The notes beneath the pieces are model-generated. The model was given only the letters and a program-made list of their open reading frames with translations, made no database searches and had not been told where the DNA came from. Positions 13,782 through 17,564 of a DNA stretch of 22,022 nucleotides are shown here, piece after piece. Made by a program: the position numbers and the translations under genes. Position 1 is the first letter of the stretch. Every line of letters begins with the position of its first letter. This stretch comes from a virus: IMG/VR virus record IMGVR_UViG_3300010885_065786, positions 1 to 22,022 of that record; one strand, 5' to 3'.

Positions 13782-13931
13782 ATGCCTAACGCGCCCAAGA
13801 CACCTACACGTACAATTCGTGTTCCCGATGAGATTTGGAAGCCTGTCCAGAAAAAGGCTCTTTCAGAAGGTGTAACTGTTACAAGCGTACTTATTAAGGC
13901 TCTTGAATCCTATCTAGTTGACAATAAGTAG
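13782..13931 (+). CDS. Small ribbon-helix-helix (CopG/Arc-type) DNA-binding protein
   Basis: 49 residues, easily missed for its size. A basic N-terminal arm (PKTPTRTIRVPDEIW) provides the ribbon strand; KPVQKKALSEG forms helix A, and VTVTSVLIKALESYL helix B, the standard CopG/Arc/MetJ fold with alternating polar residues in TRTIRV that would enter the major groove. Such proteins work as dimers and usually repress their own promoter. The gene is read from its own leaderless promoter and sits at the one real break in the early-gene cluster. Its target is unknown; auto-repression and control of the 13969-15523 genes is a reasonable inference. Confidence 0.78.
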   Translation: MPNAPKTPTRTIRVPDEIWKPVQKKALSEGVTVTSVLIKALESYLVDNK

Positions 13932-13968
13932 CTAGCTCAATAATGTAGCCCCATATAAAGGGGATTAC

Positions 13969-14857: not shown

Positions 14858-15523
14858 ATGTCAGTTCAAATTACAGATGATTTCGTACCTGAAGTTGATG
14901 AATTTTCAATTGAAAATGCAGATATTGAAGGTCGCCCAAGCAATTCAACAGATGCAATTAAATCTGGTTGGGATGCCGCAGAAGAGGCTATTAAGCCTAA
15001 AGAGTACGCAAAAGATTTTAAACTTTCTGAGACAATTCAAATCATTAAGTTTCTTGACCCAGATGGTCCTTTTGCTATTTACAGCCAACACTTTCTTACA
15101 CAAAAGACAGAAGGCCAGCGTTCATACACTTGCCTTGGAACCGGCTGCCCAATCTGTTTAACCCCATCACTAAACAGCAAAGCTGAGAAGAAGTATGCAT
15201 TCTCTATTGCAGTTCTTACTCCAACAGAGACAACTATGACAAAGCTTGTTGCCTCACCACTGTTTTTTAAAACCCTACACGCAGCACATCACTCGCCTTC
15301 AGGACCATTGGCTAAAAACTATTGGGCTGTGGCACGTCGTGGTCAAATGCAGCATACCGTTTACACACTTAACCCAGTTAAGGGTCGTGACCTTGCCGAG
15401 GATTATGGAATTGACGAGGCAAAGGCAGAGTCTGCTATTGAAGATATGAATCCATTTGATGCTTCAATTGTTCGCAAGCTTTCAATTGCAGAGCTTACAG
15501 AAGTAGTAAACGCTTTAGCCTAA
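14858..15523 (+). CDS. Single-stranded DNA-binding protein with zinc-knuckle-like Cys cluster
   Basis: 221 residues. After an acidic N-terminus (DDFVPEVDEF), residues ~45-190 look like an OB fold: FKLSETIQIIKFLDP, FAIYSQHFLT, then Cys92-x4-Cys97-x2-Cys100 (CLGTGCPIC), KKYAFSIAVLT, and AVARRGQMQHTVYTLNP. A zinc site placed inside an OB fold is known from T4 gp32, and His in SQHF could be the fourth ligand. AGGAGA seven bases before ATG 14858 is strong. The gene ends a transcription unit, with a terminator 10 bases after the stop, as expected for a protein needed in large amounts. The SSB role rests on fold pattern and context with polymerase and RecA. Confidence 0.65.
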   Translation: MSVQITDDFVPEVDEFSIENADIEGRPSNSTDAIKSGWDAAEEAIKPKEYAKDFKLSETIQIIKFLDPDGPFAIYSQHFLTQKTEGQRSYTCLGTGCPICLTPSLNSKAEKKYAFSIAVLTPTETTMTKLVASPLFFKTLHAAHHSPSGPLAKNYWAVARRGQMQHTVYTLNPVKGRDLAEDYGIDEAKAESAIEDMNPFDASIVRKLSIAELTEVVNALA

Positions 15524-15533
15524 TACTAGGTTT

Positions 15534-15576
15534 GGAGAGGTTGGGTTCTTATTCCCCTACTCAACCTCTCCTTTTT
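15534..15576 (+). terminator. Rho-independent terminator
   Basis: GGAGAGGTTGGGT (15534-15546) and ACTCAACCTCTCC (15559-15571) form a 13-pair stem with one G-U pair and a 12-base loop, followed at once by TTTTT (15572-15576). It lies 10 bases after the SSB stop and only 11 bases before the likely start of polA, so it separates SSB from polymerase expression. Confidence 0.93.
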
Positions 15577-15587
15577 AGGGGGTTCCC

Positions 15588-17564
15588 ATAAATATTATTA
15601 CCACTAAAGAACAACTTGATGAAATGGTTTCGTACTATTTACAGCAAGACTCTTTTGCGTATGATTTAGAAACTGTTGGGCCACAACGTGGCGTAACGGT
15701 TGTCAATGAGGTTTTGTGGATTTCTTTATCTACACATGGTCGAGGTGATGTTATAGCGCTAGGCCACCCAAATGGTGATTTTATTTTAGAGGAGTTCCCT
15801 TTAACTGGCCAAGGACAGAAGCGTGTAGATGCTGGATTACCAGCACGAGAATCTGATTATTCAAGAGATAAAAAGAAAGCCACAGTTACATTTGGACCAC
15901 CACCAGAGCAGCTACTCCCATCAGAAGTGTTTTTGGCGTTAAAGCCGTTGATGTTTGGAGAAGGTCGCACACTTGTTGGTCATAATTTAGTATTTGATTT
16001 AACTTCTATTGCTAAATATTACGGGGGAGAAATTCCTAAGGGCCCGTATTTTGATACTATGATTGCTTCGTTTTTGTATGACAACCGAAATAAAAACAAG
16101 TGCGGTTTAGACGATTGTTTATCTCGTGAATTTGGCTATCACATGGTTAAGGGAATTGGTAAAGAAGTTGAGAAGTATTCATTTCAAGATGTTGCCAAGT
16201 ACGCATACCTTGATGCCAAATACACATTTTTGCTTTATAAGAACGTACTTAAAAAGAAGTTAGAAGAAGGACAGCTAACCAATGTAATGAACTTAGAGAT
16301 GGGTGTCCTTAGGGTTCTATGCCACATGAAGTTGTCCGGGGCTCCAATAGATATAGAGCAGCTAACGGTTTTACACGCTCAGTTAGAGATTGATATTGAG
16401 AAAGCACGTTCTGATATTTACCGAATTGCTGGCAAAGTATTTAATATCAACTCTAACCCAGAGAAGCAAGAGCTTCTATATGGTAAGAAGGAAAATGGTG
16501 GACAAGGCCTTAAGCCTAAGATTCTTACCCCAAAGGGCAAGTCAAAAGACATAGATGGTGAACCCCTAACGTTATCTGACTACTCAGTGGCTTCAGATGC
16601 ATTAGAGCCGTATAGAGACACAAACCCACTTGTAAAAGCGCTCCTGGAGTACTCTGATTTAAATAAGCTTCTTACAACTTACGTTATTCCCTATCTTGGT
16701 GGAGATGTAACCCGCACAACCGCAGGAAAGATTAAGGTTGAACATAAAGAAAGCCTTCTTATTGACGGCAAGATTCATTGTGACTTTGTACAGCATGGGG
16801 CCGAGACTGGACGTTTCTCAAGCCGTAATCCAAACCTTCAAAACGTTCCGGCTCCTCACACGGCTCACGGCAAGGCTATCCGTAATCTTTTTTATGCTCC
16901 CGAAGGCTACAAGCTTGTAGTTGCGGATTATTCACAAATTGAACCGCGAGTGATTGCTTCCATGGCAAAAGACCCAATCATGATGGATAACTATCTCAAT
17001 AACCGAGATATTTATACAACAGTTGGAGACACCATGGGCGTGGACCGCAAGGCAGGTAAAGTCCTTGTTCTTGCTATGGCATATGGTGTTGGTCCCGATA
17101 AAATTGCGGCTTCTATAGGATGTACTGTTACGGAAGCAAAAAATCTTCTTAATGACTTTTCAAAAAAATTTAACGCTGTCAATAAGTACCGAATTATGGT
17201 TGTCAATAGCACACGCAAAAGGGGTTATGTATCCACTCTGCTAGGACGCCGTAGATACCTGCCCGATATTAACTCCTCTAATTTTGGTATTAAATCAGGT
17301 GCAGAACGTCAGGCTTTTAACACTCGCATACAAGGCTCAGCAGCAGACATTATTAAACTTGCTATGATTCGCGCCCAGGACATGATTCCAAAAGAAGCTA
17401 AATTGTTATTGACAGTACATGATGAACTTGTGACCCTCACCCCGGACAATAAAGCATTTGAAACAGCAGAGGCTATTCGTAGCGCTATGGAGGGAATTCA
17501 ACTTTTGGATGTTCCACTGATTGCAGATGTTAAAACCGTTCAACGTTGGGGAGAAGCTAAATAA
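15588..17564 (+). CDS. polA: Family A DNA polymerase with 3'-5' exonuclease domain, probable non-AUG start
   Basis: With the first ATG (15624) it has 646 residues, but the frame is open back to 15579 and encodes INIITTKEQLDE, which supplies the first strand and helix of the exonuclease fold. AGGGGG (15577-15582) stands five bases before ATA 15588; ATT 15594 or 15597 are alternatives. ATG 15624 has no ribosome site. Numbered from ATG 15624, exonuclease motifs are Asp14/Glu16 (YDLET), Asp125 (HNLVFD) and Tyr193/Asp197 (YAYLD). Polymerase motif A is DYSQIEPR (Asp435), with Pro where Leu is usual; motif B has Lys479, Leu483 (Phe762 in E. coli Pol I) and Tyr487; motif C is VHDE (599-601). This is the replicative polymerase. 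A terminator lies just upstream, so its transcript comes by read-through or from an unseen promoter. Confidence 0.93.
   Translation: MNIITTKEQLDEMVSYYLQQDSFAYDLETVGPQRGVTVVNEVLWISLSTHGRGDVIALGHPNGDFILEEFPLTGQGQKRVDAGLPARESDYSRDKKKATVTFGPPPEQLLPSEVFLALKPLMFGEGRTLVGHNLVFDLTSIAKYYGGEIPKGPYFDTMIASFLYDNRNKNKCGLDDCLSREFGYHMVKGIGKEVEKYSFQDVAKYAYLDAKYTFLLYKNVLKKKLEEGQLTNVMNLEMGVLRVLCHMKLSGAPIDIEQLTVLHAQLEIDIEKARSDIYRIAGKVFNINSNPEKQELLYGKKENGGQGLKPKILTPKGKSKDIDGEPLTLSDYSVASDALEPYRDTNPLVKALLEYSDLNKLLTTYVIPYLGGDVTRTTAGKIKVEHKESLLIDGKIHCDFVQHGAETGRFSSRNPNLQNVPAPHTAHGKAIRNLFYAPEGYKLVVADYSQIEPRVIASMAKDPIMMDNYLNNRDIYTTVGDTMGVDRKAGKVLVLAMAYGVGPDKIAASIGCTVTEAKNLLNDFSKKFNAVNKYRIMVVNSTRKRGYVSTLLGRRRYLPDINSSNFGIKSGAERQAFNTRIQGSAADIIKLAMIRAQDMIPKEAKLLLTVHDELVTLTPDNKAFETAEAIRSAMEGIQLLDVPLIADVKTVQRWGEAK

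Follow-up and report, generated by a model that had tools for sequence, protein, structure and literature searches.

A putative AUA start codon and a candidate Shine-Dalgarno-occluding leader pseudoknot at the polA gene of a metagenomic phage

Where does translation of polA begin in this phage, and what might control it? The question is raised by a 22,022-nucleotide stretch of viral DNA (IMG/VR record IMGVR_UViG_3300010885_065786; hereafter the window), in which a mechanical list of open reading frames begins polA at ATG 15624 because ATA is absent from the list's start codons. The polA frame is in fact open from the stop codon TAG (15576-15578) through to that ATG, reading GGG GTT CCC ATA(15588) AAT ATT(15594) ATT(15597) ACC ACT AAA GAA CAA CTT GAT GAA ATG(15624). 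We consider it likely that PolA starts at 15588, with AUA in this phage and AUG or UUG in its relatives, and that a leader pseudoknot occluding the Shine-Dalgarno (SD) sequence limits translation of polA. The features on which this reading depends are collected in Table 1.

The product matched the Pfam profiles DNA_pol_A (PF00476, 1.4e-91) and DNA_pol_A_exo1 (PF01612, 2.9e-13), both past the cut-off, which are the domains that define a family A polymerase with a 3'-5' exonuclease; it also matched PHROG 17. Comparison of the window polA with its sisters gave dN of 0.03-0.04 and dS above 1. This strong purifying selection indicated that the gene is functional and its protein in use, although it cannot provide a date for the ATA codon. 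When viral contigs were searched with the extended protein, 80 relatives were recovered; additional searches enlarged the collection to about 290 loci with 174 distinct 5' ends. Relatives were also sought in bacterial and archaeal genomes, and none was found there. We take the window phage to be a freshwater phage, and its relatives to be a large group of mostly freshwater-type metagenomic phages.

Table 1. Features at the SSB-polA junction, in window positions
Feature	Coordinates	Strand	Remarks
Probable SSB gene, 221 aa	14858..15523	+	Directly upstream of polA
S1 5' arm GGAGAGGTTGGGT	15534..15546	+	Pairs with 15559-15571
S2 5' strand CCCCTA, hairpin loop	15554..15559	+	Complementary to TAGGGG 15576-15581
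S1 3' arm ACTCAACCTCTCC, then TTTTT	15559..15571	+	Pairs with 15534-15546
S2 3' strand TAGGGG	15576..15581	+	Overlaps the SD sequence
SD sequence AGGGGG	15577..15582	+	5-nt spacer (TTCCC) to ATA 15588; SD:anti-SD -8.8 kcal/mol
ATA, putative PolA start codon	15588..15590	+	Aligned codon is ATG, TTG or GTG in relatives; ATA private to the window population
ATG, internal Met13 rather than start	15624..15626	+	Weak SD; codon unconserved; inside predicted helix 7-18
polA	15588..17564	+	Family A DNA polymerase with 3'-5' exonuclease domain, 658 aa

The start position of PolA

An earlier note on this DNA had proposed that PolA begins at a non-AUG codon, either ATA 15588 or one of the ATT codons at 15594 and 15597. 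Across the 174 distinct 5' ends, the codon aligned to ATA 15588 was ATG in 114, TTG in 37 and GTG in 2, and nearly all of the remaining 5' ends had a standard start one codon off that position. The proposal therefore held for ATA 15588. It did not hold for the ATT codons, at which no relative begins and whose spacing from the SD is long (11 and 14 nt, respectively).

The residues encoded upstream of ATG 15624 were conserved. Rather than all starting at the position of that ATG with no similarity ahead of it, nearly all of the 80 relatives recovered with the extended protein aligned from residue 1. An alignment of 34 relatives showed that L10 is invariant and that T5, T6, Q9 and E12 are each conserved in at least 90% of sequences; T5, Q9, L10 and E12 were also invariant in an alignment reaching as far as Streptomyces-phage PolA (~42% identity). 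The AlphaFold2 model, computed with the 34-sequence alignment as input, had a mean pLDDT of 88.5, with values of 94-97 for residues 1-20, and contained a strand (residues 2-4) and a helix (residues 7-18). That is, the upstream 12 codons encode the strand and the first half of the helix; the earlier note had expected the open frame to supply the first strand and helix of the exonuclease domain.

No standard start codon comes earlier in the frame than ATG 15624, which is the choice of the mechanical ORF caller; a PolA beginning there would be without its first 12 residues. We regard such a start as very improbable. The SD:anti-SD duplex energy was only -1.3 kcal/mol ahead of ATG 15624 versus the far stronger duplex ahead of ATA 15588 (Table 1), so the observation in the earlier note that the AGGGGG five bases ahead of ATA has no counterpart at the ATG was correct. 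Codon 13 was ATG in just 119 of the 174 relatives, and in the others it was TTA, CTT, CTA or another codon. Furthermore, because the model places a helix at residues 7-18, Met13 falls inside a helix, and a start at this codon would cut the fold as had been foreseen: the helix would be severed, strand 2-4 removed and conserved residues dropped. With almost no SD ahead of it and an unconserved codon, ATG 15624 was rejected as the start.

We concluded with high confidence, on the basis of the aligned starts, the conserved N-terminal residues, the SD and the position of the predicted helix, that the start position of PolA is most plausibly 15588. The codon at this site has the attributes of an AUA-start gene, namely a homologous start position, proper SD spacing and no other in-frame start upstream, and the alignment suggests that initiation takes place at the AUA itself. 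One practical outcome is that ORF callers would trim 12 conserved residues from this PolA, because AUA is unusable by them.

The meaning of the ATA codon

Two sequences alone, the window and contig IMGVR_UViG_3300009159_000662, carry ATA at 15588, and together they make up one of the 174 distinct contexts. The two are 100% identical across 11,227 bases, and a search for independent alleles at the polA start recovered this sister contig only. Sisters at 94-95% protein identity carry ATG at the same position. Judged from this distribution, ATA is a derived state that is private to the window population, and because it is so confined it is not a family-wide regulatory device. The codon may be a weak start that arose in this population or a hypomorphic allele; an error is less likely. 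The window SD ranked 11th strongest among the leaders of 156 relatives (means of -6.9 for ATG starters and -6.1 for TTG starters), and a strong SD of this kind would fit compensation for a weak start codon.

A possibility to be taken seriously, if not a probable one, is that ATA is a recent hypomorphic allele or a sequencing or assembly error that has no regulatory meaning, and that PolA in this lineage is normally made from ATG as in its sisters. The confinement of ATA to a single context and the ATG of the close sisters favor this interpretation, and ATG to ATA is a single transition. In addition, the two ATA contigs represent one population and may share reads, such that they are perhaps not independent data; a rare, defective or erroneous ATA allele is therefore possible. 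On the other side, the codon is carried by two contigs that agree at every base of their long shared stretch, and the SD ahead of it is among the strongest of the family, as expected where the start codon is weak.

Natural AUA starts have been documented in Staphylococcus aureus for infC, ccpN and citZ by ribosome profiling and reporters; they operate at about 10% of AUG, with ccpN reaching as much as 30% in rich medium (PMC13009471). The infC and ccpN AUA starts are accompanied by strong extended SDs, and the citZ AUA is limited to one strain lineage (PMC13009471). The phage polA start resembles these genes in its AUA codon, resembles infC and ccpN in its strong SD, and resembles citZ in being confined to one population; in contrast to the measured S. 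aureus starts, it is deduced from alignment. An actinobacterial precedent for initiation factor 3 (IF3) limiting a gene through its start codon is sigR of Streptomyces, whose GTC start is repressed by IF3 (PMC5472188), although sigR is a cellular gene with GTC and the present case is a phage polA with AUA. IF3 control of the polA AUA, as the earlier note had it, would be a guess. By itself the AUA would be a minor curiosity. It does provide a natural series of ATG, TTG and ATA at one conserved start, which makes start-codon strength, SD strength and leader structure directly comparable.

The leader hairpin and its complementarity to the SD

The earlier note missed the potential pairing between a hairpin loop and the SD just upstream of the start; of the regulatory features proposed here, this pairing is the more general. 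A 13-bp hairpin (S1, spanning 15534-15571) begins 10 nt past the SSB stop codon (15521-15523) and lies ahead of the polA SD. Its loop contains a strand complementary to the sequence overlapping the SD, and the pairing of these two strands is here termed S2. Position 15559 is common to the S2 strand and the top pair of S1, and that S1 pair must open for S2 to form. The hairpin was nearly always present in the relatives, and the sequence of its stem varied freely: counted from the loop, all four Watson-Crick pair types occurred at every position of S1, so that the stem covaries. A MAFFT alignment of the leaders misplaced the SD strand because the lengths of stem and connector vary, and pairs were therefore counted by scripts instead.

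We grouped 156 distinct leaders into 88 clusters and scored each by its longest loop-SD complement. A complement of at least 5 bp was present in 69% of the 88 clusters, versus 22% for shuffled loops (maximum of 300 runs, 36%). When SDs were swapped among clusters, 46% reached at least 5 bp (maximum of 1000 runs, 60%). The mean complement was 5.06 as compared with 4.48 +/- 0.11 after swapping, and none of the 1000 swaps reached the observed mean. The loop is thus complementary to the downstream SD beyond chance, as expected of an SD-occluding leader. When ten gene starts in this part of the genome were scanned, polA had a z of 13.9 against shuffles and 3.8 against swaps, and the values for the other nine were at most 3.1 and 2.2, respectively.

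Loops and SDs also matched by class. An SD of GGGG went with a CCCC loop in 47 of 54 cases, and GGAG with CTCC in 11 of 20. On the PolA tree, several lineages of the main clade had lost the GGGG SD and the CCCC loop together. Examples of loop and SD were CCTCCTT with AAGGAGG (L155), CCCCTAA with TTAGGGG (L107) and TATCCCCT with AGGGGATA (L080), and the window (CCCCTA with TAGGGG) differed from its sister L002 (CCCCTT with AAGGGG) by a two-sided change. Own versus crossed loop-SD pairing did not differ significantly between nearest sisters (40 better, 37 worse; Wilcoxon p = 0.17). Compensatory change is therefore supported mainly between deeper lineages, and small changes in the SD flank are not reliably compensated.

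We also considered whether the two helices fit together. S1 is 13-18 bp long and the connector to the SD is often only 3-7 nt; because of this long stem and short connector, many leaders cannot accommodate both helices at full length, and some S1 pairs must open. A crude model that counts stacking only put the median gain from the pseudoknot at 8.8 kcal/mol; with a penalty of 7-10 set against it the balance is about neutral, the penalty and the limit on strand reach being our own assumptions. Such a poised structure might suit a regulated leader, and might equally suit a functionless one.

Some lineages keep the hairpin without the loop-SD pairing (e.g., with loops CAACACGTGC or TAAC). The leaders of L029, L033, L034, L064 and L072-L077 have lost the pairing, and most of them carry a loop with the palindrome CACGTG (AACACGTGC) that might dimerise with another such loop or serve as a protein-binding site. 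In L084 and L087, the Streptomyces phages GiJojo and pSt2308, the leader hairpin is followed by one or two small ORFs ahead of polA, and owing to these insertions it is separated from the polA SD.

The idea that SD hiding is general among the genes of this phage was rejected, in that the other starts showed little or no signal. One possible exception stands ahead of ATG 13969, where the hairpin CCCC(ATATAAA)GGGG (13949-13968) covers the SD of a 128-aa gene. The relatives carry variants of it: CCTAAC/GTTAGG in L029, L036 and L077, CCCCAA/TTGGGG in L028 and GCTCC/GGAGC in L068. The formal test of SD pairing at this gene was weakly positive (z 2.1-2.4), and the site could be a second SD-hiding element in the form of a simple hairpin.

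The main rival interpretation of the polA hairpin is that it is merely an intrinsic terminator or attenuator that ends the SSB gene, its C-rich loop pairing with the SD by chance or without consequence. The window stem is G+C-rich, is followed by TTTTT and starts close behind the SSB stop codon, and a terminator-like hairpin also occupies this place in the Streptomyces phages Alone3 and BRock, where the loop differs and does not pair with the SD. Nevertheless, a plain terminator fits the TTTTT of the window and not the relatives that are devoid of a U-run: this run is unconserved, and the stem is followed by CCAT in L016 and by CTCTAACATC in L150. The order of bases in the loop, beyond their composition, fits the SD, as the comparison with shuffled loops revealed, and the SD and loop classes shift jointly. 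We therefore judge a mere terminator somewhat unlikely. It would be most improbable that the loop imitates the anti-SD tail of 16S rRNA and acts on the ribosome instead of on its own SD. Such mimicry is suggested by the distant clade, where the loops of L138, L156 and L165 read ACCTCCTTTCT or GACCTCCTTTCT, which is more than their own SDs require; in the GGGG clade, on the contrary, the loop is CCCCTT and tracks its SD rather than the 16S tail. The loops of L138, L150, L156 and L165 are ACCTCCTTTCT or close to it, and their likeness to the 3' end of 16S rRNA extends past the stretch that their own SD needs.

The upstream gene, known leaders and the proposed mechanism

The 221-aa gene ahead of polA occupies the position of the annotated SSB gene in Streptomyces phages GiJojo and Alone3. 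Its protein aligned weakly by BLASTP with the Alone3 SSB (E=0.003), its AlphaFold2 model matched the BRock 'Single-stranded DNA-binding protein' (Foldseek E=1.2e-10) and gave weak matches to RPA OB-folds in the PDB, and some of its orthologues matched PHROG SSB families (best 1.3e-6). Position, similarity and modelled fold make it probable that this protein is the SSB of the phage. An ORF of 49 aa (13782-13931) for an Arc-like repressor (PHROG 6506, E 7.7e-13), which falls below the 60-aa cut-off of the ORF list, is situated where the SSB/polA gene cluster starts. The relative L043 has a tRNA gene (1034-1106) some 1.9 kb ahead of polA.

To our knowledge, leaders in which a pseudoknot controls a phage replication gene have been characterised in few cases, and searches of open-access texts found no account of one ahead of a family A phage polymerase. 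A search of Rfam with the window leader returned no match (best STnc390, 15.5 bits against a cut-off of 50), and the leaders of ten relatives returned nothing relevant; a known RNA family, riboswitches included, was accordingly rejected for these eleven leaders, as the gathering score was not reached. In the preQ1-I riboswitch, which has an H-type topology, the hairpin loop pairs with a downstream sequence that includes or adjoins the SD. The polA leader would share this arrangement with the translational preQ1-I riboswitch (PMC10622847) and other leaders with the SD in a pseudoknot, but it differs from preQ1-I in having no conserved ligand pocket, an S1 sequence free to vary and no Rfam match.

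Two leaders of T4-type phages were also compared. In gene 32 of T4, T2 and RB69, a leader pseudoknot 67 nt upstream of the start nucleates binding of gp32 on an unstructured ribosome binding site (RBS) (PMC3014915, PMC535899). The polA locus is similar in having a replication gene, a leader pseudoknot (here predicted) and an SSB gene. In contrast, the polA pseudoknot would contain the SD itself, it precedes polA and not the SSB gene, and any binding of protein is hypothetical. An operator of the gene 32 type, with its pseudoknot upstream of an unstructured UUAA(A)-rich SSB RBS, was rejected, given that the pairing here takes in the polA SD and the leader follows the SSB gene. For gp43 of T4 and RB69, a hairpin upstream of the RBS, together with a protein-bound stretch overlapping the RBS, limits synthesis of the polymerase; its UAAC loop is read by the protein, with no evidence for a pseudoknot (PMC3014915). 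Both are DNA-polymerase mRNAs with a hairpin upstream of the RBS, but the polymerase is of T4 type there and of family A here, and in the present leaders the stem is unconserved and the loop is kept mainly as a complement of the SD. As far as its sequence indicates, the polA leader would work like SD-occluding pseudoknots, and is neither a T4 gene 32 operator nor a known riboswitch.

We infer that the loop-SD pairing forms in the cell and represses polA, and propose the following sequence of events. The polA gene would most likely be transcribed together with the SSB gene, and the leader hairpin would fold between the SSB stop codon and polA. Its loop CCCCUA would then pair part of the time with UAGGGG at the SD, creating an H-type pseudoknot in which the SD is hidden and initiation is lowered. 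Relief may come when the SD is freed by a ribosome, by a replication protein or by partial melting of the stem. The start codon would serve as a second level of control, lowest with AUA, for which the strong SD would partly compensate. It is a guess that the closed form is stabilised by PolA or SSB, in the way that T4 uses gp43 and gp32 with different RNA designs (PMC3014915, PMC535899). The fullest version of this scheme would be a widespread phage RNA element, in which PolA or SSB opens or closes an SSB-polA pseudoknot that conceals the polA SD, with an IF3-sensitive AUA brake added in this population, and this we consider unlikely.

Here a large group of phages carries a comparable arrangement ahead of its family A polymerase; the stem covaries throughout the 88 leader clusters, and Rfam contains no such entry. 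If control by PolA or SSB, as in that fullest version, were real, polymerase output would track replication demand, and the leader would be an independently evolved family A counterpart of the autogenous operators of T4 gp43 and gp32.
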